From Bacillota bacterium (GTDB taxonomy: Bacteria > Bacillota > Desulfotomaculia > Desulfotomaculales > Desulfallaceae): 40,503 nt of DNA. Of the stretch, positions 1 to 26,901 are shown piece by piece. Each line of letters opens with the position of its first letter. Position 1 is the first letter of the stretch. The notes under the pieces are model-generated. The model saw only the letters and a program-made list of their open reading frames with translations. It searched no databases and was not told the DNA's origin. Made by a program: the position numbers and the translations under genes. The stretch covers positions 1 to 40,503 of the forward strand of contig JAKSCU010000259.1 of NCBI GenBank assembly GCA_022360435.1. The letters are read 5' to 3'.

Positions 1-84
1 AACTCCCGCTTTCTCGACGGTCTTGATACAAAAGTGGAGGACGGCGATACTATACAAATTCTACCGGCAATAGCAGGAGGCTAA
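1..84 (+). CDS. MoaD/ThiS-like sulfur-carrier protein, C-terminal end only
   Basis: The frame is open from the first base and ends in TAA at 82-84. It encodes the last 27 residues of a protein whose 5' part lies outside the window. The visible end reads VEDGDTIQILPAIAGG and stops directly after Gly-Gly. A beta-grasp ending of the form DGDxIxIxPAxxGG followed by a terminal GG is the signature of MoaD/ThiS ubiquitin-like sulfur carriers, in which the last Gly is adenylated by an E1-like enzyme and converted to a thiocarboxylate. An E1-like gene lies 1.5 kb downstream in the same direction, which supports the pairing. In Firmicutes such carrier/E1 pairs often sit next to tungsten aldehyde ferredoxin oxidoreductases; whether one lies upstream cannot be seen. 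A ribosome binding site for the next gene (AGGAGG) overlaps the last codons, so the two genes are probably co-transcribed. Confidence 0.8.
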   Translation, partial: NSRFLDGLDTKVEDGDTIQILPAIAGG

Positions 85-89
85 ATAAA

Positions 90-1322
90 ATGATTAATCC
101 AAGAACTAAGAGCGACCCATTGTTTGAACACTTTGTCACAGCATCGGGGCCAGAAAACGGATTAGCTGACGGAAGAAGCAATGCGGGGCTTTTTGCTGAA
201 AACCAAAGTCTTTCGGAATTTGAAAATCGTGCCCTGAGAAGTATTAAGAAAAGCTTTTCCTGTGAAGATAGTAAAACTCTATATCAGGAAATTTTAATGG
301 CTAGCGATAAGGAGCTAGACAGCGCCGAAGAAGACTTGGCCGCCACTGTTTTTAGTGACCGACAACGGGTTTTTGATTTCAGTCAAGACTTTCTCAGCAA
401 AATTGATGCAAGTGCCGGTATCAAAAAATGTTTTAGTCAAGCAATCGAGGAAGTGCGCACCGAGGTGTTTATCTACCCGTGTTTCCCGCCTGTAGATTTT
501 GTCTTTGCCACCCTGAGCGCGGAGCATGAAAGGTCTAAGGACGATCTCTTGCCTCTGGCGGCCGCGAGTCTATATTACTACATCGGTGTCGCTCTCTATG
601 ACGATGTCATTGATCACGATTTGGGCACGACATGGTCGGGGCATAGCACAGAACATGTTGGCCTTACCGCAATAGGTGTATTTGCCGGTCTCCCTGCAAA
701 AATATTTCAGCATTACTATGCAAAACCCAATGATGAGTTGATGTATGCCAAATTATCTCATATCGTGCTGGAATTAATTTATTATCAAGCAGTTGGACAA
801 TATCAGGACCTTGAAATCGATCTTACGCACAATGAATTGCCACAGATAAGTGAGCAAACCTCGGCGCTAAAAGTGGGCACGACCGGGGGTTTGACAGGAC
901 GATTAGTAAGCGAGTTCTTAAAGTTCCCGGATGCTGTGGCACGACATTTCATTGACTATTGCACGAACATGTATACTGCAATGCAGATATCAAGCGACAT
1001 ATTCGACATTTGGAGCAAACCGGTTAGCCCGGATTTCACCAATGCAACGGTAACATTACCGATTGCCTATACCTTTCTATCTTTGCCGGAGGAAGAGAGA
1101 ATTGTATTCAAGCGCAAGCTTGAGTTAAAGAATGCAAGCATGGAACATCATAACGATCTTCGCCAAACAATAGAAAAGACTAATGCATTCCTGTATAGCC
1201 TGGCTAAAGCGGAAACATATCGCCAAAAGGCGTTTATGTCCTTACTCTATCTTGAGGAAGCAGGGCTGCCAATTTCATACTTGCGGTATTTTACTAAAGT
1301 CACTGCCATTTGCAAGGATTAA
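90..1322 (+). CDS. ComQ-like isoprenyl diphosphate synthase homologue
   Basis: This 410-residue protein resembles the all-alpha trans-isoprenyl diphosphate synthases. The first aspartate-rich motif is intact (DDVID at about 171-175). The second is degenerate: QISSDIFD at about 299-306, with Ser where typical synthases have the first Asp of DDxxD. A weakened second motif is also seen in ComQ-type enzymes, which prenylate a peptide or act on unusual acceptors rather than only extending isoprenyl chains. The first 120 residues are a charged extension not usual for this family. The start is ATG at 90, with AGGAGG at 75-80, five bases after the stop of the sulfur-carrier gene, so both look like one operon. 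No convincing ComX-like peptide gene follows. It may make or transfer a prenyl group linked to the sulfur-carrier chemistry, but that is inference; the substrate is unknown. Confidence 0.7.
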   Translation: MINPRTKSDPLFEHFVTASGPENGLADGRSNAGLFAENQSLSEFENRALRSIKKSFSCEDSKTLYQEILMASDKELDSAEEDLAATVFSDRQRVFDFSQDFLSKIDASAGIKKCFSQAIEEVRTEVFIYPCFPPVDFVFATLSAEHERSKDDLLPLAAASLYYYIGVALYDDVIDHDLGTTWSGHSTEHVGLTAIGVFAGLPAKIFQHYYAKPNDELMYAKLSHIVLELIYYQAVGQYQDLEIDLTHNELPQISEQTSALKVGTTGGLTGRLVSEFLKFPDAVARHFIDYCTNMYTAMQISSDIFDIWSKPVSPDFTNATVTLPIAYTFLSLPEEERIVFKRKLELKNASMEHHNDLRQTIEKTNAFLYSLAKAETYRQKAFMSLLYLEEAGLPISYLRYFTKVTAICKD

Positions 1323-1461
1323 GCGTATTAACAGTAGTTACTATGATTCCGACGCGGTGGAGTTTGGCTGGTTTATCAGAAGTTGATAAAAAATAAAGAG
1401 TGATATTTGGTAAAGGCACGCTAGAGATACCGTAGCAAGCAGAGCTCTATCCCAGAATCAA

Positions 1462-1504
1462 TATATGCACCATGCCGGACACACCATCCGGTATGGTGCA
1501 TATA
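1462..1504 (+). promoter_or_regulatory. Long stem-loop upstream of the E1-like gene
   Basis: An 18-base-pair inverted repeat (left arm 1462-1479, right arm 1487-1504, loop 1480-1486) has a single G/T wobble. It ends six bases before the ribosome binding site AAGGAG (1510-1515) of the E1-like gene. No T-run follows it on the plus strand, so it is not a standard terminator. It could be an operator or an mRNA element controlling translation of the downstream gene. A second weak hairpin (arms 1372-1378 and 1384-1390) lies in the same 200-base gap. Confidence 0.55.
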
Positions 1505-1523
1505 AAACGAAGGAGATTGGCAG

Positions 1524-2399
1524 ATGGAAACGAAAGAACGACAGAGTTTTGAAATCCTCCTTGCTGAAGCTGCGGAAGAATATCTCGATCCCGCAGATAG
1601 AAGAATGTGGATACTAAAAGACAGTGAATCCCAAAGGCTGGCCGACCAATTCCAGGTCAGTATGCACGATGTGTATATTGAAGCTCTCAATCAAGGAATA
1701 TGGCCATATCGCTATGTCCGTAACCAAAGCGGCTTCTCAATTTCAGACCAACTCCGCCTAGCTAAATCGCGAGTTGGAGTAATAGGCTCGGGTGGATAGG
1801 GCGGCACATTGATTCTTCTCCTATCTAGGATAGGAATCGGAAGCCTTGTCATTATTGACCATGATGTATTTGATGAGACAAATTTGAACCGGCAGGCCAT
1901 TTGTAGCGTAAACTCCGTCGGAACATCAAAATCCAAAGAGGCAGGTAGAATAGTTAAGAGCATTAACCCTGCCGTTAACGTAAAATCGCACCATCTCAAA
2001 ATCAGTACCATTAATGGTGCTGATTTACTGGTTGGGTGTGATGTGCTGGTCGATGCTCTGGACAATATTCATGATCGCCTGGCGCTTTTGGAAATTGCTC
2101 GAGATATGGGCGTTCCGTATGTACACGGCGCTATTGCCGGCTTTGACGGTCAGGTAATGACCGTCTTCCCTGAAGATACGAGTTTTAAAGAAATTTATGG
2201 CGCAAACCACTCCCCGGGAGTGGAGCCCAAGAGACCTGAGGCTGTCCTGGGTGTTTTGGCGGTCACCCCGTCTATGATCTCTACATTTCAAGCTATGGAG
2301 GTGATTAAAGTCATTCTTAAGCGCGGTCGTATACTTAGAAATCGCATTCTCCAGGTAAATTTAGAGGAGTCGCAGTTTAATGAATTTTTATTGGAATAG
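1524..2399 (+). pseudogene. ThiF/MoeB/HesA-like E1 adenylyltransferase interrupted by an in-frame TAG
   Basis: Reading from ATG 1524 (AAGGAG at 1510-1515) gives 91 residues, then TAG at 1797-1799, then 199 more residues in the same frame to TAG 2397-2399. Read through, this is a 291-residue E1-like enzyme. It has RYVRN near residue 63, the ATP loop VGVIGSGG-stop-GG, the strand LVIIDHDVFDETNLNRQ, the DALDN segment, and a C-terminal helix (SMISTFQAMEVIKVIL). The stop falls exactly where the family has Leu in GxGGLG; TTG to TAG is one base change. The Cys pairs that bind zinc in MoeB/ThiF are absent. Its expected role is to adenylate the C-terminal Gly of the sulfur carrier encoded at 1-84. A recent nonsense mutation, a sequencing error or amber decoding could all explain it. 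The 91-residue fragment alone lacks the catalytic core. Confidence 0.75.
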
Positions 2400-17070: not shown

Positions 17071-18309
17071 ATGGCATTACCGAAACCGCATGGTCCGGAG
17101 GGAAAACTGAAGCCTTTGCTTTTGTACGGGGCGGAAAGGAAAGCGGAAATCGAGCGAGCACAAGGCCTCCCCAAGGTTTACATGAGTTCAAGAGAAACAT
17201 CCGATGTTCTGATGCTGGGCATCGGCGCGTTTACCCCCCTGACTGGTTTTATGAAGAAGGATGATTATACCGGTTGTGTATTTGACCTTAAATTGAACAA
17301 CGGCGCCATGTGGCCCATGCCGGTTACACTTTCCATCACCGGCGCGGAAAAAGACGCCATCAGCCTGAACGCAAACATGGACGTGGCATTAATCGACAAG
17401 GCGTCCGGCGAACTTTACGCCACCATGACTGTTGAAGACATCTATACTTACGACAAGGAAGCCGAGTGTCGCGAAGTGTTCAAGACCCTGGACGCCGAAG
17501 GGCACCCCGGCGTGGCCAGTGTTATGAGTCAGGGTGAGTATAACCTGGGCGGCCCGATTAAGGTTCTCAACGAAGGCGTATATCCCCAAAAGTACCCCAA
17601 GTATTACCTCTATCCCGAAGAAGCCCGCAAGTTGTTTGAGTCCAAGGGTTGGTCCAATGTCGTGGCGTTTCAGACCAGGAACCCTATGCATCGCTCTCAC
17701 GAGTACCTGTGCAAGTTCGCCATGGAAAGCGGACTGGTGGACGGATGCTTCATCCACGCCATCGTCGGCGCCCTGAAACCCGGCGACATTCCTGGTGAAG
17801 TGCGCACCAAGTGCTATGAAGTGCTGGTGGAACACTACTTCCCGCAAGAAAATATCGCCCTTGGCGTGTATCCCATGGAAATGCGTTACGGCGGACCCCG
17901 GGAAGCTTTGTTGCACGCGGTATTCCGTCAGAACTGGGGCTGCAAGTACCTCATCGTCGGCCGCGACCATGCCGGCGTAGGCGACTACTACGGCCCCTTT
18001 GACGCCCAGACGATATTTAAAGAACTCTGGCCCGGCGCTCTGGAACTTGAGCCCATGCTGATTGCCTGGACCTTTTACTGCTACAAATGCCAGAGTATGG
18101 CCAGCCAGCGCACCTGCCCGCACGGGCCGGAAGATCGCTGCGTGGTCAGCGGCACCAAGTTCCGCCGTATGATGCAGGACGGCGAGGAGATTCCCATTGA
18201 GTTCGGTCGTCCCGAGGTCATGGAAATTCTGCGCGAATATTACAAAACCGCCGAAAAGGTTGAAATCAAGAAGGGCGCATACGAAGATATGCCCGGAACC
18301 AAAAAGTAA
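17071..18309 (+). CDS. sat: Sulfate adenylyltransferase (ATP sulfurylase), dissimilatory type
   Basis: The 412-residue protein catalyses ATP plus sulfate to adenosine 5'-phosphosulfate (APS) and pyrophosphate, the activation step of sulfate reduction. Visible motifs are QTRNPMHRSHEYL at about 201-213 (QxRNP and HxxH at the active site), GxLKPGD near 231, and VGRDHAGVGDYYGPFDAQ near 296-313. A Cys-rich stretch close to the end (CYKCQ...TCPHG...C) matches the metal-binding loop of homodimeric ATP sulfurylases from sulfate reducers. Length is normal for the family. The start ATG 17071 has AGGAGGG upstream. A 613-base gap precedes aprB, which is longer than usual inside one operon, so aprBA may have a second promoter. 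Confidence 0.97.
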   Translation: MALPKPHGPEGKLKPLLLYGAERKAEIERAQGLPKVYMSSRETSDVLMLGIGAFTPLTGFMKKDDYTGCVFDLKLNNGAMWPMPVTLSITGAEKDAISLNANMDVALIDKASGELYATMTVEDIYTYDKEAECREVFKTLDAEGHPGVASVMSQGEYNLGGPIKVLNEGVYPQKYPKYYLYPEEARKLFESKGWSNVVAFQTRNPMHRSHEYLCKFAMESGLVDGCFIHAIVGALKPGDIPGEVRTKCYEVLVEHYFPQENIALGVYPMEMRYGGPREALLHAVFRQNWGCKYLIVGRDHAGVGDYYGPFDAQTIFKELWPGALELEPMLIAWTFYCYKCQSMASQRTCPHGPEDRCVVSGTKFRRMMQDGEEIPIEFGRPEVMEILREYYKTAEKVEIKKGAYEDMPGTKK

Positions 18310-18922
18310 CACGCTTGACATGGGAGTACGAAGAGGATTCCGAAATGAGCCTCTCCAACAACTGGAATACTACCGGGTGCGCCAAGGGCGCGCCCGGCAA
18401 GCGGTACCTTCCTCCGGCGGATAAATTTGGCATGTGGCGAAAAATGTCGTAATTTCGGCTATAAAAAACAGGTTTTTAGCCGGGAGAGAAGAAGGAGCCG
18501 GATATTTAAGCGTCGAATGTCTAATTACTTTTTACGGCTTTTTTATACGGGGTCGTGCCAGGGAAAGAGACAGTTGTCACAAGAACGGGTCCCAGGAGTG
18601 AATACATTGTGCATCATCGTCGGTGAGGGCCGGGTCATACCGGAATCCAAGCGCCGCGACCCCGGGTTGCCAAAACAGCTATATTTTGCACAGTTCTTGG
18701 GGGAGGTGATTATAAAGGCCGCCGGGTGCAGCTATGAATCGCGCCCAGCGCAAGAAAAGACTCGATATTGCGGGTATTTTGGGGGAGAGGAAGGGTTGCA
18801 GTTAATTCTATGGTTCTTTTTGTCACCTCATTTGCCTAAGCGCCGGCTGGTAAGGCAATTATGCCGCTGTCGGTGCGTAGAAACCTTGTTTAATTAAAAT
18901 TTGGGAACGGGAGGTTGAATTA
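18310..18922. other. sat-aprB intergenic region with a GC-rich stem-loop
   Basis: Some 64 bases after sat lies an eleven-base-pair stem-loop (18373-18383 with 18387-18397, loop AAG, one G/T wobble) without a T-run, likely an mRNA 3' stabiliser or weak terminator. The remaining 500 bases contain no credible gene. A 156-codon frame from TTG 18427 has Cys/Arg-rich composition and no matching binding site. A new promoter for aprBA is expected here, but no consensus pair is obvious. Confidence 0.5.
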
Positions 18923-19366
18923 ATGCCAACTTTTGTAATGACCGAAAAATGTGACGGCTGCAAGGGTCAGGACAAAACCGCTTGCATGTACGCATGCCCC
19001 AACGACTTGATGGTGTTGGATAAGGAATCCATGAAGGCCAACAACCGTGACCCCTGGGCCTGTTGGGAATGCCTTTGCTGTGCCAAGGCCTGCCCTCAGC
19101 AAGCCATGGACCTGCGCGGTTATGCCGACTTTGTCCCCATGGGCGCCACTGCAACTCCTCTGAGAGGTTCCGACAGCATTATGTGGACCATCAAGTTCAG
19201 GGACGGGATGGTCAAGCGCTTTAAATTCCCCATCCGGACCACTGAAGAAGGCACCGCCGTGCCCGACGGCGGATACCCGGCCGACCAGGACAATCTGAAC
19301 GACGAGACCCTGTGCACCGAGCCGGCTTCCTTGCTGATGGACGCTGTGCCCACCATGAAAAAATAA
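18923..19366 (+). CDS. aprB: Adenylylsulfate reductase beta subunit (iron-sulfur)
   Basis: This 147-residue electron-transfer subunit carries two [4Fe-4S] clusters. The ligands are visible as Cys10, 13, 21, 25 (with the long insert KGQDKTA typical of AprB) and Cys47, 50, 53, 57. The C-terminal half (about 65-147) forms the beta-sheet and tail that wrap around AprA. It passes electrons from the Qmo-type donor to the FAD of AprA in the cytoplasm. The start ATG 18923 has GGGAGG upstream. aprA follows after 54 bases, the conserved aprBA order. Confidence 0.97.
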   Translation: MPTFVMTEKCDGCKGQDKTACMYACPNDLMVLDKESMKANNRDPWACWECLCCAKACPQQAMDLRGYADFVPMGATATPLRGSDSIMWTIKFRDGMVKRFKFPIRTTEEGTAVPDGGYPADQDNLNDETLCTEPASLLMDAVPTMKK

Positions 19367-19420
19367 TTGCACTCCCAATACGGGGTTTGATAAAGAACTT
19401 AACGGAGGAGGTTAATACTA

Positions 19421-21301
19421 ATGCCGATGAATTTTGAAACTGTTGAAGTAACCACAGATTTTCTTATTGTAGGCGGTGGCATGGCATCCTGTGGCGCGGC
19501 CGTGGAAGCTGTGCACTGGGCGAAGAAACACGGCCTGAAAACTACCCTGGTTGACAAGGCTTCCGTGGATCGTTCCGGCGCGGTGGCCATGGGTCTCTCG
19601 GCTATCAACCAGTATCTTGGCGTGGGTAAAGGCAAAAACACCGTGGAGCAGTATGTTGAGTATGTGCGCCAGGATCTGATGGGCGTTGCCCGTGACGACC
19701 TGGTTTACAATATTGCCCGCCACGTTGACGGTTCCGTGCACCTGTTTGAAAAGTGGGGCCTGCCCATTTGGAAAACCGAAGATGGCGAGTATGTAAATGA
19801 AGGCCGCTGGCAAATCATGCTCAACGGTGAATCCTACAAGGTCATCGTGGCGGAAGCCGCCAAGAACGCCCTGGGCATGGACAATATTTACGAGCGTATC
19901 TTCATTATCGAACCGCTGCTGGACGGCGACCGGATTGCCGGGGCTGTTGGTTTCAGCGTGCGGGAAAATAAATTCTACGTTTTCAAGGCCAAAGCTGTTC
20001 TGGCCGCCATGGGCGGTGCGGTAGGCGTGTTCAAGCCCCGTTCCACCGGTGAAGGTCTGGGTCGTTCCTGGTATCCTCCTTTCAGCACCGGCTCCAGCGC
20101 ATACTTCACCATTCGCGCCGGCGCGGAAATGACCTGTCAGGAAGTGCGCTTCATTCCGGTACGCTTTAAGGATGCTTACGGTCCGGTTGGCGCCTGGTTC
20201 CTGCTGTTCAAATCCAGGGCCATCAGCGCCCTCGGTGGCGAGTATATGGTCGAGCGCCGCGACGAGCTGCAAAACTGGGCTCCTTACGGCCTGGTCAAAC
20301 CCATCCCGGCCAACCTGCGCAACTACCTCGGCATGCTGGATGTCAGCGAAGGCAAAGGTCCCCTCATGATGATGACCAACGAAGCCATCGCCAAGCTGGC
20401 CGAGAAGTATAAAGACGATCCCAAGGCTTTCAAGAAGAAAATGAAGGAACTGGAATCCGAAGCTTGGGAAGACTTCCTTGATATGACCATCTCCCAGGCC
20501 CTGCTGTGGGCGGCCACCAACACCCAGCCCGAAGAGAAGCCTTCGGAGATCGCCGCCGCCGAACCGTACTTCATCGGTTCCCACTCCGGCGCATCCGGCG
20601 CCTGGGTATCCGGTCCCGAGGACATCGCTCCGCCCGAGTATTTCTGGGGCTATGCCAGCATGACCACCGTCAAGGGTCTGTTTGCCGCCGGCGACGCTTC
20701 CGGCGCTTCCAGCCACAAATTCTCCTCGGGTTCCCACGCTGAGGGCCGTATTGCCGCCAAGGCAGCCATCAAGTATATCGTGGAGAACAACGAGCAGCCC
20801 AACGTGGACATGGCCAAGGTGGAAGAACTGAAAGCCAAGGCTTACAAGCCGCTGGAGCTGTTTGAAGAGAACAAGGGCTTTACCACCGACCCCGAAGTGA
20901 ACCCGGCTTACATCAAGCCCAGGATGTTCATGTTCCGTCTCCAAAAGATGATGGATGAGTATGTGGGCGGCGTGAGCGCGAACTTCAGCACCAACACGCC
21001 CAACCTGGAAAGGGCCATGGAGTTGCTCGCCTTTCTTAAGGAAGACTCCGAGAAACTGGCTGCCGCCGACCTGCATGAGTTGATGAGATGCTGGGAGAAC
21101 ATCCACCGGATGTGGCAAGCCGAGTCTCATGTTCGCACCGTGATGTTCCGTGAAGAAACCCGTTGGCCGGGTTACTACTACCGCGCCGACTACCCGAAAA
21201 TGGACGAGGAGAATTGGCTGTCCTTCGTCAACATCAAATGGGATCCGAACACCGGCGAGTGGGACGTATTTAAAAAGCCCATAATTCGTCTGGAAGTCTA
21301 A
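19421..21301 (+). CDS. aprA: Adenylylsulfate reductase alpha subunit (FAD)
   Basis: The 626-residue catalytic subunit reduces APS to sulfite and AMP. It belongs to the fumarate reductase/succinate dehydrogenase flavoprotein family. The dinucleotide site FLIVGGGMASCGAAVEAV is at about 10-27, followed by DKASVDRSGAVAMGLSAINQYLG. The FAD-domain close AGDASGASSHKFSSGSHAEGRIAAKAA lies at about 420-448. The C-terminal helical domain and the end KWDPNTGEWDVFKKP are typical of AprA. Length and all landmarks match the family. The start ATG 19421 has GGAGGAGG upstream. A GC-rich hairpin follows the gene, and qmoA starts 393 bases later. Confidence 0.97.
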   Translation: MPMNFETVEVTTDFLIVGGGMASCGAAVEAVHWAKKHGLKTTLVDKASVDRSGAVAMGLSAINQYLGVGKGKNTVEQYVEYVRQDLMGVARDDLVYNIARHVDGSVHLFEKWGLPIWKTEDGEYVNEGRWQIMLNGESYKVIVAEAAKNALGMDNIYERIFIIEPLLDGDRIAGAVGFSVRENKFYVFKAKAVLAAMGGAVGVFKPRSTGEGLGRSWYPPFSTGSSAYFTIRAGAEMTCQEVRFIPVRFKDAYGPVGAWFLLFKSRAISALGGEYMVERRDELQNWAPYGLVKPIPANLRNYLGMLDVSEGKGPLMMMTNEAIAKLAEKYKDDPKAFKKKMKELESEAWEDFLDMTISQALLWAATNTQPEEKPSEIAAAEPYFIGSHSGASGAWVSGPEDIAPPEYFWGYASMTTVKGLFAAGDASGASSHKFSSGSHAEGRIAAKAAIKYIVENNEQPNVDMAKVEELKAKAYKPLELFEENKGFTTDPEVNPAYIKPRMFMFRLQKMMDEYVGGVSANFSTNTPNLERAMELLAFLKEDSEKLAAADLHELMRCWENIHRMWQAESHVRTVMFREETRWPGYYYRADYPKMDEENWLSFVNIKWDPNTGEWDVFKKPIIRLEV

Positions 21302-21694
21302 TCAGATAACCAATAGTTGATCTCACCCCATGTCCCGGGCGAGATCGGTAACTTTACGCATTGTGCCATCCACGGCGCAAAGGGCCCGTGGCTTCGGCCA
21401 CGGGCTTGGCGCTGTGCTTAAAACGGCGGCATGTCAAAGTTGCGATAGCAGCCCTGGCTGGTACTCACTTGGGGACTGGGCGTTAATTTTACGGAGAGTG
21501 GACCACTATACCAGGCGTCCTTGCGGGTTGCCTGGAGTTTTTTTTCAGTGAAATGTCCCAATTTTATGTATAAGAAAATAGTGATTTAAGTTTTTTGTTT
21601 AAATTGTCGCGCAATTGCTAAACCGGACGATTGTCATTCGGTAGAATAGAGCAGGCAGAAAAATCTACACGGGAGAATGGCGTGGTGATAAATT
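21302..21694. other. aprA-qmoA intergenic region
   Basis: This holds a small hairpin right after aprA (GATCTC 21320-21325 with GAGATC 21341-21346), the strong stem-loop listed at 21375-21412, and about 280 bases to qmoA without a supported gene. The part next to qmoA is AT-rich and could hold a second promoter; I see no convincing consensus pair. Confidence 0.4.
21375..21412 (+). terminator. GC-rich stem-loop after aprA
   Basis: GCCCGTGGC (21384-21392) and GCCACGGGC (21397-21405) form a perfect nine-base stem closed by a TTCG tetraloop, extended by GCGC/GCGC outside a small internal loop. No T-run follows, so it may be a partial terminator or a stabiliser that makes aprBA mRNA more abundant than the qmo mRNA. 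Confidence 0.6.
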
Positions 21695-22954
21695 ATGGCA
21701 AATAAAAGCATATTGGTTGTGGGAGGGGGAATAAGCGGCCTGACTGCTGCTCTGGAAGCGGCCGAAGCAGGCTGTGAGGTTTATATTGTGGAAAAGAACC
21801 CGTACCTGGGGGGACGGGTAACCCAGATTAACCAGTATTTTCCCAAGCTGTGCCCACCCAACTGTGGGTTGGAAATCAATTTCCAGCGCATCAGGAACAA
21901 CCCCCGGATTAACTTCTTTACCATGGCGGAAGTGGAAAACATCTCCGGCCAGGAAGGCGATTTCAGCGTGACGGTTAAACTGAACCCCCGTTACGTGAAC
22001 GAAAATTGTACCGGCTGTGGCAAGTGCGTGGATGCTTGCCCGGCGGAGATAGACAATCCATTTAACTACGGGATGAATAAAATCAAGGCCATCCATTTAC
22101 CCCACGATTTTGCTTTCCCCATGCGATACGTTATTAACGCCGACGCATGCAAGGAAGCGGGATGCGCGGGTAAGTGCGCCGAGGTTTGCGAGTACAAAGC
22201 CATCGAGCCCGACATGCAGCCCAAGACCATGAACCTGAACGTGGGCGCAATCGTGTGGGCCACCGGCTGGGAACCTTACGACGCCAACAAGCTTAGTTAC
22301 TACGGGTACGGCCGGTACAAGGACGTCATTACCAACGTAATAATGGAGCGGATGGCCGCCATGGACGGACCCACATCGGGCAAAATCGTCCGCCCGTCGG
22401 GCGGCAAGGAAATCAATAGTATTGCTTTTGTCCAGTGTGCCGGTTCCCGGGATGAGAATCATCTCAAGGCCTGTTCCTCGGTTTGCTGCCTGGCAACCCT
22501 GAAACATGCCACCTACGTGCGAGAACAGTACCCCGAAGCCCAGATTGATATTTATTATATCGACATCAGGGCCCGGGGCAAGAACGAAGACTTTTTCACC
22601 AGGGTGCAGGAAGCGGCCGGCATTAATTTAATCAAGGGCAAGGCCGGCGAAATTGAAGCAGATTCCGACACCGGCCAGTTGGTTGTAATTGCCGAGGACC
22701 AGGATACGCAACAGGTGGCCAGGAAAAGTTACGACCTGGTGGTATTGGCCACCGGCATGGAGCCATCCACCGCAACAGCACCGATCCCGACGGATATGGC
22801 CTATGATGAGGACGGTTTCGTGGTGCCGGGTGCGGGGACTGCCGGTATCGTGGCCACCGGATGTGTCAAAAACCCGTTGGATGTGGCCGCCGCTGTGAGA
22901 GATGCTACCGCCGCAGCGCTTAAGGCCATCCAATCGACAGTGAGGGGGCAGTAG
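21695..22954 (+). CDS. qmoA: QmoA, HdrA-like flavoprotein of the quinone-interacting membrane-bound oxidoreductase complex
   Basis: The 419-residue protein is an HdrA-type flavoprotein. An FAD site is at the N-terminus (ILVVGGGISGLTAALEAAEAG, about 5-25), followed by the HdrA motif NPYLGGRVTQ. A cysteine-rich insert at about 107-170 reads CTGCGKCVDACP and CKEAGCAGKCAEVCEYKA and likely binds iron-sulfur clusters. The segments VQCAGSRDENH and VVLATGMEPS are shared with HdrA. Together with QmoB it carries electrons to AprBA. The start ATG 21695 has no strong binding site immediately before it (GGGAGA lies further upstream). qmoB begins two bases after the stop, so the two are translationally coupled. 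Confidence 0.92.
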   Translation: MANKSILVVGGGISGLTAALEAAEAGCEVYIVEKNPYLGGRVTQINQYFPKLCPPNCGLEINFQRIRNNPRINFFTMAEVENISGQEGDFSVTVKLNPRYVNENCTGCGKCVDACPAEIDNPFNYGMNKIKAIHLPHDFAFPMRYVINADACKEAGCAGKCAEVCEYKAIEPDMQPKTMNLNVGAIVWATGWEPYDANKLSYYGYGRYKDVITNVIMERMAAMDGPTSGKIVRPSGGKEINSIAFVQCAGSRDENHLKACSSVCCLATLKHATYVREQYPEAQIDIYYIDIRARGKNEDFFTRVQEAAGINLIKGKAGEIEADSDTGQLVVIAEDQDTQQVARKSYDLVVLATGMEPSTATAPIPTDMAYDEDGFVVPGAGTAGIVATGCVKNPLDVAAAVRDATAAALKAIQSTVRGQ

Positions 22955-22956
22955 CG

Positions 22957-25161
22957 ATGGAGAAAAAAATAGCCGTATATATTTGCACAGGCTGTGGAAT
23001 TGGGGATGCCCTGGACATCGATGCCCTGTCCAAGGTGGCGACGGGTGAATTCAAAGTGCCGATTTGTAAGAACGACGAGCAGCTTTGTGGCTCGGAAGGC
23101 GTAAACTTGATTAAGCAGGACATTGAGAGCGAGAGCGTGGACACCGTCGTTATCGCCGGATGTTCCGCCAGGGTTAACTTCGACGTGTTTGCATTTGGAT
23201 CGGACAAGATTGTGGAGCGGGTCAACCTGCGCGAGCAGGTAATCTGGTGTCATACCGCGGGCGACGAGGACACCCAGATGCTGGCCGAGGACAACCTGCG
23301 CATGGGTCTGGTCAAGCAAAAAAATATGAGCGTGCCGGAGCCTTACCAGGTGGAAAACTTTTCCCGCGGCATTCTGGTGGTGGGCGGCGGCCTGGCCGGC
23401 CTTACCGCCGCGCTGGAATCGGCCAAAGCCGGTTATTCCGTCGTGCTGGTGGAAAAGGAAGCCGAGTTGGGCGGCTACGTGGGCAATATGTACAAGCAGG
23501 TGCCTTTGAAGCCCCCGTTCACCGACCTGGAAGAGAACTGTATTTCCGCCTTGGTCAAGGCTGTGGAGGACGCCGGAGTCAAAATTTACAAATCGGCCAC
23601 CGTTGAAAATACCGCCGGCGCGCCGGGCATGTTTGACGCGACTATCAAAACCGCCGACGGCACCGCCGAAGAGCGGGTTGGCGCCATTGTGCTGGCCACC
23701 GGCGCCAAGTCCTACGAAGCCGATAAACTGGCGCACCTTGGCTTTGGCAAGTTTGATAATGTGATTACCCAGCCCATGTTTGAAGAACTGGCAGTCGCCG
23801 GTAAGTTGGAGGCCGGCAAAGTGGCCTTTATCCAGTGCGCCGGATCCAGGGACACGGAGCACCTGCCTTACTGTTCGGCGGCATGTTGTATCGAGTCTAT
23901 GAAACAAGCCCTGTATGTAAAGGAAAAGAACCCCGAGGCCAATATTTACGTATACTACAAGGATATCAGATCCAATGGGCAGTATGAACACTTTTATATG
24001 AAAGCCCAGCAGGAAGGTGTTATATTTATCAAGGGCGACGTCACTGCAATTACCGAAGAAGACGGCAAGCTGGCCATTGAGGCTGATGACAAGACCATGG
24101 GCACCACCTCTTTGGCCGACGAGTTTGACTATGTGGTGCTGGCCAACGGCATGGTACCCACTGCGGCGCTGGGCGAGCTGGTGGAAGAAGCGCCTGCCGA
24201 GGATGAAGCGGCGGCGTCCGACGAACCCAATGCAACCACTGCGCCGGTAATCAAGTCCAACCTGTTGAATCTGGCTTACCGGCAGGGCCCGGAGTTGCCG
24301 GCGCTGAAATACGGCTTCCCGGATTCCCACTATATCTGTTTCCCGTATGAAACCAGGCGCACCGGCGTCTACGCAGCCGGCGTGGTGCGGGCGCCCATGG
24401 ATATGCTTTCGGCGGTGGAAGACGCCGCCGGCGCCGCCATGAAGGCCATCCAGTGCATTGAAGCCACCGAGAAGGGGGAAGCGGTGCACCCGCGTTCCGG
24501 CGATATGTCCTTCCCGGAATTCAACATGAACCGCTGCACCCAGTGCAAACGGTGCACCGAGGAATGCCCCTTCGGCGCCATCAACGAAGACGAAAAAGCC
24601 AACCCGCTGCCCAATCCGTCCCGTTGCAGAAGGTGCGGCACATGCATGGGCGCTTGCCCCGAACGGATCATTTCCTTTAAGAACTACTCGGTGCCTATGA
24701 TCGGCAACATGGTCAAAACCATCGAGGTGCCCGAGGAAGACGAAGAAAAGCCCAGGATCCTAATTTTTGCCTGTGAGAACGACGCCATACCGGCTTTGGA
24801 CATGGCCGGCATCAACCGTTTGCAGTATAATTCCTGGGTCAGGATTATCCCGTTGCGCTGCCTTGGTTCCCTCAACCTGGTGTGGATTAACGACGCCATG
24901 GGTCGGGGATTTGACGGCGTGCTGCTGATGGGCTGCAAGCACGGCGACGATTACCAGTGCCACTTCATGAAGGGCAGCGAGCTTGCGGAAATCCGCCTGT
25001 CCAAGATTTCCGAAACCCTGGACCGCCTGGGTCTGGAGTCGGATCGGGTGCGAGCCACCACGGTGAACATCACGGATTACGACAAAATTCCGGCTATGCT
25101 GGACGAGTTCGCCGAGGAGTTGGAAGAACTGGGTCCGAACCCGATGAAGGATTTCCAGTAA
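22957..25161 (+). CDS. qmoB: QmoB, HdrA-like flavoprotein with ferredoxin and MvhD-like domains
   Basis: The 734-residue protein has four parts. There is an HdrA N-terminal domain with its own Cys residues (about 1-125), then an FAD domain starting ILVVGGGLAGLTAALESAKAG (about 140-160). A two-cluster ferredoxin domain (CTQCKRCTEECP and CRRCGTCMGACP, about 527-570) follows, then an MvhD/FlpD-type domain to the end (FACENDA, IPLRCLGSLN, MGCKHGDDYQC). This matches QmoB. The MvhD-like part is the place where such proteins couple to hydrogenases or formate dehydrogenases, so electron confurcation or bifurcation is possible. The start ATG 22957 is two bases after the qmoA stop. The gap to hdrC is 262 bases and contains a stem-loop. 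Confidence 0.92.
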   Translation: MEKKIAVYICTGCGIGDALDIDALSKVATGEFKVPICKNDEQLCGSEGVNLIKQDIESESVDTVVIAGCSARVNFDVFAFGSDKIVERVNLREQVIWCHTAGDEDTQMLAEDNLRMGLVKQKNMSVPEPYQVENFSRGILVVGGGLAGLTAALESAKAGYSVVLVEKEAELGGYVGNMYKQVPLKPPFTDLEENCISALVKAVEDAGVKIYKSATVENTAGAPGMFDATIKTADGTAEERVGAIVLATGAKSYEADKLAHLGFGKFDNVITQPMFEELAVAGKLEAGKVAFIQCAGSRDTEHLPYCSAACCIESMKQALYVKEKNPEANIYVYYKDIRSNGQYEHFYMKAQQEGVIFIKGDVTAITEEDGKLAIEADDKTMGTTSLADEFDYVVLANGMVPTAALGELVEEAPAEDEAAASDEPNATTAPVIKSNLLNLAYRQGPELPALKYGFPDSHYICFPYETRRTGVYAAGVVRAPMDMLSAVEDAAGAAMKAIQCIEATEKGEAVHPRSGDMSFPEFNMNRCTQCKRCTEECPFGAINEDEKANPLPNPSRCRRCGTCMGACPERIISFKNYSVPMIGNMVKTIEVPEEDEEKPRILIFACENDAIPALDMAGINRLQYNSWVRIIPLRCLGSLNLVWINDAMGRGFDGVLLMGCKHGDDYQCHFMKGSELAEIRLSKISETLDRLGLESDRVRATTVNITDYDKIPAMLDEFAEELEELGPNPMKDFQ

Positions 25162-25363
25162 GCGGAATAGGGACGACCTTGTAAATGTGAATGGACATAC
25201 CTCCTCTCTTAGGGGCAATAAATAGGGTGGGGGGATGTACTTCATAGTGTGGCAGGGTAGACACCCACGCATTAGAGGTTGCAATATCTGAATATGGCAT
25301 ATCCCTCCAATTCCTGGGAGGTTCCGCCTGGGTGGTATCCGCCGGTTGCTTTAGATAAAAAAA

Positions 25364-25384
25364 GGGCGGCTAAAACAGCCGCCC
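25364..25384. promoter_or_regulatory. Stem-loop between qmoB and hdrC
   Basis: GGGCGGC (25364-25370) pairs perfectly with GCCGCCC (25378-25384). A seven-A run precedes it, so it would terminate minus-strand transcription. On the plus strand there is no T-run, and it may instead mark mRNA processing before hdrC. Confidence 0.45.
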
Positions 25385-25423
25385 GTACTCCTTTAAAATT
25401 GAGAAAAAGGAGAAAAATGCTTT

Positions 25424-26020
25424 ATGGAGCAGAAAAAGTTATTTTCAGAACCTGTGAAATATGATTTAACATTTGCCCGGGAAATATATCGCCTGGAGAA
25501 CGGTTCATATATCAAGCAATGCATGAATTGCGGCATGTGCGCCATTTCCTGCGCCACCAAGGATATCATGGACTATTCACCCAGGAAACTCTTCAACCTG
25601 ATCAAGCTTGGCAAAAAAGAAGAGGTTATGAACGCCAATACCATCTGGTACTGCACCTCTTGTTGCACTTGCAAGGCGCGCTGTCCCAGGGGCATCCCCA
25701 TTGTCGACGTAATGCACGATCTGAAAAAATATGCCATTGAGCAAGGTAGTGACGATTACCCGCAATCCGCTTTTTATAAGGCATTTTGGAAGGAAATGTC
25801 CAGCCGGGGCAGGATGTTTGAAGGCGGGGTGACGGCCCGTTATTTCCTGATGCGGGGCCTGGACGAGATCATGAAGGCCTTTAGTATGAAAGACGTGGGC
25901 ATGAGCATGCTCAAACACGGCCGGCTGCCTCTGCTGCCGCCGAAAAAACTCAAGGGAATGGGCGGTTTGAAGAAGATTATTCGCAAGGCCCGGGAACTTG
26001 AGCGGAAGGAGGCCAGGTGA
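25424..26020 (+). CDS. hdrC: HdrC-like iron-sulfur subunit (replaces part of QmoC)
   Basis: The 198-residue protein is an HdrC-type ferredoxin subunit with two cluster motifs, CMNCGMCAISCA near 34-45 and CTSCCTCKARCPRG near 74-87. The helical region after them carries no heme or membrane helices. With hdrB next, it stands in for the soluble part of QmoC; the membrane heme b part of QmoC is absent. This qmoAB-hdrBC arrangement is known from Gram-positive sulfate reducers. The start ATG 25424 lies eleven bases from AAGGAG; a closer ATG at 25417 opens only a 15-codon out-of-frame peptide, which could act as a leader. The stop overlaps the start of hdrB. Confidence 0.9.
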   Translation: MEQKKLFSEPVKYDLTFAREIYRLENGSYIKQCMNCGMCAISCATKDIMDYSPRKLFNLIKLGKKEEVMNANTIWYCTSCCTCKARCPRGIPIVDVMHDLKKYAIEQGSDDYPQSAFYKAFWKEMSSRGRMFEGGVTARYFLMRGLDEIMKAFSMKDVGMSMLKHGRLPLLPPKKLKGMGGLKKIIRKARELERKEAR

Positions 26021-26901
26021 TGAGGTACAGCTTTTATCCCGGATGTTCCATGGAAGCGACGGCCAAGGCCAACCTGTATTCCATTGAGGGTGTGGCCAAA
26101 GCGCTGGACTTGAACCTGGAGGAAATACCGGACTGGAACTGTTGCGGCGCCACCATGGCTTCCGGTGTGGTGGGGGACTTTACCCAGCAGGCGGTTACCG
26201 CCCGCAACCTGGCTATTGCCGAAGCCAAGGGGCTGGACGTAGTGGTGGGCTGCAGTTCCTGCTACATGACCCTGGCGGTGACCAACAAGCGGTTCAAGGA
26301 AGACGAGCATTTCCGCGTCAAGGCCAACGAGGCGCTGGCCACTGCCGGGCTGCATTACAACGGCACCCTTGCGGTGCGCCAGTTTATGGAAGTGCTCATT
26401 ACCGATGTGGGTTTGGACAAGGTGGCCCAGCGGGTCAAAAAGCCGCTTACCGGTCTTACCGTGGCTGGTTATGTAGGATGCCAGACGGTCCGGGCGTTGC
26501 CTTACCAGTTTGACGACCCGGAACAGCCGGTGGGTATGGACCGGCTGATGGAGGCGTTGGGCGCCACGGCGGCGGATTTCCCCATGCGGGCGCGCTGTTG
26601 CGGAAGTTCGCAAACTATTCCCCAAAGAGATATTGTGCTGGACTTGGGATATAAGATATTCGAATCGGCCGCGGCCGGCGGGGCCCAAGTCATTGTCACC
26701 CCGTGTCCCATGTGCCAGTTGAACCTGGACGCCTATGAACAGTTGGTCAATAAGAAATACGGCGCCAATTTCAATATCCCGGTGCTGTACTTTACCCAGC
26801 TGATGGCCGTGGCCTTCGGTTTATCTCCCGAAGCACGGGCGTTGAAGTACAATATTGTTTCTCCTTATGAAGCACTATCAGCTTTTGGAGAAAGCAAATA
26901 G
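26020..26901 (+). CDS. hdrB: HdrB-like subunit with two CCG domains
   Basis: The 293-residue protein has two complete CCG domains. In the first, YPGC, WNCCG and GCSSCYM; in the second, GYVGCQ, RCCGSS and CPMCQLN. These five-cysteine sets hold the non-cubane [4Fe-4S] clusters that split disulfides in heterodisulfide reductase. Here the partner is probably a low-potential donor or a thiol/disulfide carrier rather than CoM-S-S-CoB. No membrane segment is seen. The start ATG 26020 overlaps the hdrC stop (TGATG). It closes the sulfate-reduction run; the next gene is 630 bases away. Confidence 0.9.
   Translation: MRYSFYPGCSMEATAKANLYSIEGVAKALDLNLEEIPDWNCCGATMASGVVGDFTQQAVTARNLAIAEAKGLDVVVGCSSCYMTLAVTNKRFKEDEHFRVKANEALATAGLHYNGTLAVRQFMEVLITDVGLDKVAQRVKKPLTGLTVAGYVGCQTVRALPYQFDDPEQPVGMDRLMEALGATAADFPMRARCCGSSQTIPQRDIVLDLGYKIFESAAAGGAQVIVTPCPMCQLNLDAYEQLVNKKYGANFNIPVLYFTQLMAVAFGLSPEARALKYNIVSPYEALSAFGESK

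Follow-up and report, generated by a model that had tools for sequence, protein, structure and literature searches.

All characterised prenyltransferases of the trans-isoprenyl diphosphate synthase-like (trans-IDS-like) class modify tryptophan in peptides (PMC13290415). ComQ (IPR033965), PalQ and the P domain of ChrPC combine a trans-isoprenyl synthase fold with a first Asp-rich motif of the form DDxxD and with a degenerate second Asp-rich motif (pseudo-SARM) that keeps its second Asp and an upstream Gln (PMC5331326, PMC10853753, PMC13290415); their isopentenyl-diphosphate (IPP)-binding motifs are lost. Binding of the allylic donor is ascribed to the first motif, and that of the peptide acceptor to the pseudo-SARM (PMC5331326, PMC10853753, PMC13290415), the motif roles in ComQ itself having been published (PMC5331326, PMC13290415). 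The pseudo-SARM of ComQ reads NDxxx or GDxxx, and ComQ required Asn or Gly, not Ser, at its first position (PMC5331326). A second described system concerns sulfur carriers: MoaD genes lie strictly beside genes for aldehyde:ferredoxin oxidoreductases (AOR), often together with MoeB, in what is probably a mobile tungsten-cofactor cluster (Iyer et al. 2006, PMC1779556). Here we describe a bacterial locus in which a gene resembling those of the first system stands between a carrier and an E1 resembling those of the second. We consider it probable that a tungsten-cofactor operon of carrier and E1 has taken up the gene of an orphan ComQ-like trans-prenyltransferase.

The window, meaning the whole 40,503-nt stretch that was analysed, begins at contig base 1, and the N-terminal part of the carrier and all upstream genes therefore lie outside the data. 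This truncated gene (1..84, + strand; NSRFLDGLDTKVEDGDTIQILPAIAGG followed by the stop codon) encodes a sulfur carrier of the ThiS/MoaD type, of which the last 27 residues are present; they end in Ala-Gly-Gly and, by Pfam match, cover ThiS profile positions 53-76 (1.7e-5). An AOR-type ThiF/MoeB-like E1 gene, identified by its ThiF match and by E1 comparisons, occupies 1524..2399 (+ strand) and matches Pfam ThiF over 1731-2393. The initial annotation, which reported a Gly-Gly-ended carrier, a prenyl synthase and an E1 in one direction, was right about the genes, their orientation and the carrier's end; it missed an in-frame stop in the E1. Elsewhere on the contig, sat, apr and qmo sulfate-reduction genes (named by sequence reading) form one block at 17071-26901, which marks the contig as a sulfate reducer's.

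The prenyltransferase gene (90..1322, + strand; 410 aa; assigned from the frame, Pfam, alignment, trees and a structural model) has its ATG at 90, 5 nt downstream of the carrier stop. Its Shine-Dalgarno sequence, AGGAGG (75..80, + strand, by direct reading), lies 9 nt before the ATG and is supplied by the codons for the carrier's Gly-Gly, so that a gene inserted directly after such a carrier gets its start signal free. With this signal in the last codons of the carrier, the two genes are probably co-expressed, and probably co-transcribed, while their chemistry would be separate; nothing indicates that they work jointly. GC3 is 0.44 in the prenyl gene and 0.43 in the E1, against 0.54-0.72 in the other measured genes of the contig, and both genes therefore look acquired, possibly together. 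This shared odd composition may reflect joint arrival and possibly a functional link, for which it is the main remaining point. Plasmid, phage, PHROG and viral-contig searches with the prenyl protein returned no match, and we rejected a phage or plasmid origin.

Scoring 22.3 bits against Pfam PF00348, the prenyl protein falls below the 27-bit cut-off. Its AF2 model (pLDDT 74.6) matches trans-isoprenyl diphosphate synthase structures at E about 1e-7, with TM values of 0.65-0.8 by target length, and the predicted structure has the trans-isoprenyl synthase fold of the canonical enzymes. The first ~76 residues are predicted to be disordered and are missing in relatives; compared with ComQ, the protein carries an extra ~80-90 N-terminal residues. 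Sequence reading and alignments place the first Asp-rich motif, DDVID, at residues 171-175 (600..614, + strand), with the first and fifth Asp of the ComQ DDxxD kept. Gln299 and the pseudo second motif follow as QISSDIFD at residues 299-306 (984..1007, + strand), in which Ser302 replaces the first Asp; the altered motif SDIFD that had been annotated is thus confirmed. No substitution occurs at Asp171, Asp175, Gln299, Asp303, Lys261 or Gly236-Gln237 in a clade that extends over several phyla. The first pseudo-SARM position is Ser in all six clade proteins of one alignment, and Asn in the Priestia protein L102.

One alignment combined the window protein, its relatives, real ComQ proteins and polyprenyl synthases. 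The ComQ reference proteins, each with an adjacent comX, were fetched from databases; of the search with a B. subtilis ComQ bait, only the retrieved database proteins serve as evidence. Polyprenyl and heptaprenyl diphosphate synthases (PF00348) have the fold and the first Asp motif in common with the window protein, which lacks their GGKRxRP, RRGxPT and second DDxxD motifs. GGKRxRP and the arginines of RRGxPT are equally lost in the relatives and in ComQ. The window protein, its relatives and ComQ also have GQ instead of GE, KxG instead of KTA, Ser, Asn or Gly in place of the first SARM Asp, and a 6-residue deletion behind the SARM. As a statement of resemblance, the original label "ComQ-like" is therefore borne out; the likeness extends, by their descriptions, to PalQ and ChrPC. 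The pseudo second motif sets the window protein apart, with SDIFD instead of NDxxx or GDxxx, and ComQ-type tryptophan chemistry is not assured because Ser occupies the position where ComQ needed Asn or Gly (PMC5331326).

Phylogeny separates the protein from both better-known classes. Two trees resolved three groups, namely canonical synthases, ComQ and a scattered third clade with support of 100/99, which holds the window protein together with proteins from Nitrospirota, delta-type, Bacillota and Priestia genomes. Grouping with ComQ was rejected (p-AU 0.007), as was grouping with canonical polyprenyl synthases (p-AU 0.009), for a protein whose long branch of 2.6 substitutions per site calls for caution over its placement. 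The initial annotation had named membership of the ordinary synthases, together with a promoter of its own, as grounds for abandoning its idea; the tree gave the opposite answer, and a promoter scan upstream of the prenyl gene found nothing above chance. Ordinary polyprenyl synthases are encoded elsewhere in the same genome (contigs C129 and C15). To our knowledge, no member of the window's clade has been characterised.

A quorum-sensing modifier of the ComQ type is unlikely, even with an active site so much like that of ComQ. Its precursor would be encoded either beyond the contig edge or by an overlapping 67-aa ORF (1183..1386, + strand) that runs across the prenyl 3' end and ends VEFGWFIRS. 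This ORF is a weak lead to a Trp-bearing peptide: its Trp lies five from the end, and in ten searched genomes of the phylum true comQ genes adjoin a short peptide ORF that has Trp close to its end (11 loci). It has no match to ComX, however, whereas real ComX does match, and crossing ORFs with a terminal Trp make up 6 of 111 long background ORFs. The gene directly upstream is the carrier rather than comX, and no comX, comP or comA was found in the window, nor was any recognised beside other members of the clade. These points stand alongside the rejection of ComQ membership by the trees. In the 11 comQ loci (L128-L138), the comX-like peptides are encoded upstream of comQ and end in or near Trp, and most loci also carry a ComP-like kinase and a ComA-like regulator.

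Two further readings of the prenyl protein seem to us unlikely as well. Chrysanthemyl-type enzymes, whose second Asp motif is likewise altered, join two allylic diphosphates. The window protein could be an irregular-coupling synthase of this kind, given its altered first SARM position and a model that matches isoprenyl diphosphate synthases including mealybug PcIDS1, but the diphosphate-binding motifs GGKRxRP and RRGxPT are gone as well and the losses match those of ComQ. Alternatively, a polyprenyl synthase may have decayed to a non-functional state within a decaying operon, as the low Pfam score, the long branch and the interrupted neighbouring E1 might suggest. Against such decay, the frame of 410 codons is unbroken and the residues listed above are invariant across the clade.

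The E1 is separated from the prenyl stop by 201 nt. Within this gap, ~20 nt before the E1 start, lies an 18-bp inverted repeat with a 7-nt loop (1462..1504). It lacks a T-run, which makes a terminator unlikely, and is possibly an operator; it was not found in the other loci read, and the gap has no Rfam match. A gap of this length with an inverted repeat means that the E1 need not share the carrier/prenyl transcript. Direct reading of the E1 reveals an in-frame TAG (1797..1799, + strand) in the GxGGxG nucleotide-binding loop (IGSGG-stop-GGTL), the rest of the gene being undisrupted. We rejected a pyrrolysine reading of this codon, as no PylS hit in this genome passes the cut-off and those obtained are cross-hits to other synthetases of class II; PylS does occur in the relative G012. 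Mutation or misassembly is therefore the probable origin of the TAG, and as assembled the E1 reads as broken, with a sequencing or assembly error possible.

Carrier and E1 resemble the AOR-linked pairs of the tungsten cofactor. The two nearest E1s within 113 genomes of the order, from G002 and G418, are 35-37% identical to the window E1. In G418 (L095), AOR, carrier and E1 genes are consecutive with no intervening gene, and in G002 (L016) all three lie on one 7-kb contig. The CxxC zinc motifs of a MoeB-type relative are missing from the window E1 and from the G418 protein alike; the G002 protein has one CxxC elsewhere in its sequence, and its N-terminal segment is similar to that of the window E1. 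With the AOR-linked MoaD/MoeB pairs (PMC1779556) the window thus has in common a Gly-Gly-ended carrier and an E1 most like AOR-adjacent E1s, which bears out the tungsten association that the initial annotation had mentioned for such pairs. It differs from them in the intervening prenyl gene, in a nucleotide loop that is not intact and in showing no AOR gene in the visible sequence. None of the genome's seven AOR contigs was found to continue into this contig, and the contigs fetched show no overlap. An apparent second in-frame TAG, in the AOR gene of contig C435, was discounted after translation gave no internal stop within the coding frame. The same genome (contigs C313, C46, C226, C276 and C359) contains seven AOR genes together with several carriers that end in Gly-Gly. 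In its assembly, rated 98% complete, no MoeB/ThiF-type E1 other than the interrupted one was detected. This leaves an erroneous TAG, a bypass of the stop or the absence of a further E1 from the assembly as explanations.

The three genes are real, and the trio is not a conserved system. No close relative of the prenyl protein occurs in the 16 family, 113 order and 399 phylum genomes searched, and the distant relatives, one (G456) inside the order and four from other genomes, are at most 24-26% identical to it. No prenyl relative stands beside a carrier or E1 in the neighbourhoods read, and the carrier-prenyl-E1 order was absent from the other genomes searched, so the arrangement is, as far as searched, peculiar to this genome. 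The initial annotation had offered both a joint pathway and a simple insertion, and had named restriction to a single genome as evidence against the former; with the order found only here and the relatives in other neighbourhoods, insertion is the idea that gains. It is very improbable that carrier, prenyl enzyme and E1 form one pathway joining thiocarboxylate sulfur to an isoprenoid in a thio-product, for all that terpenoid thioacids such as thioplatensimycin are made in nature, that 5 bp and a strong Shine-Dalgarno link carrier and prenyl gene and that low GC3 is common to prenyl gene and E1, since the order recurs in no other genome searched, the E1 carries a stop in its nucleotide loop and is nearest to E1s of AOR clusters, and the nearby genes read include no acyl-activating or terpene cyclase genes.

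The placement of the trio has the look of a single insertion, not of a new pathway combining sulfur and lipid, and the arrangement has no importance beyond this genome. On the insertion reading, carrier and E1 would be the remains of a tungsten-cofactor helper pair that accompanies AOR, and the prenyltransferase gene would have been acquired between them. The enzyme retains its metal and allylic-diphosphate site and no longer has the IPP-binding motifs. With this combination, and with Ser-Asp-x-x-Asp as pseudo second motif, elongation is unlikely and prenyl transfer likely: the enzyme would take the prenyl group of an allylic diphosphate and place it on another acceptor, most likely without lengthening the isoprenoid. 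By analogy with ComQ, that acceptor would probably be a peptide or protein side chain, for instance tryptophan.

More tentatively, and in our estimate improbably as a whole, the clade may form, apart from ComQ, a third bacterial lineage of enzymes that prenylate peptides or proteins, distributed over Nitrospirota, delta-type, Bacillota and Priestia genomes and acting on acceptors other than ComX; at this locus, translation of its member would begin from the tail of a carrier gene for the tungsten cofactor, with its expression tied to tungsten enzymes. The trans-IDS-like prenyltransferase class would be widened by such a clade, whose pseudo-SARM differs and whose surroundings show no recognised pheromone genes, and the acceptor of its enzymes is directly testable. 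The neighbourhoods of the relatives vary. A Priestia plasmid carries a solitary copy. In a Nitrospiria genome (L058), the prenyl gene lies 8 bp upstream of a gene for an HExxH metallopeptidase-like/HEAT/cyclic-nucleotide-binding protein, and a homologue of that protein is encoded beside the prenyl copy of the Bacillota genome G456 (30% identity; L058 7911-11500 and L059 2-3817); prenyltransferase and neighbour are possibly a conserved pair. In three delta-type genomes (L060 8842-9807, L061 1334-2242 and L062 9074-9997), a conserved lipoprotein-like gene rich in Cys comes after the clade member; it is 64% identical between L060 and L061, the two of the three that were compared.
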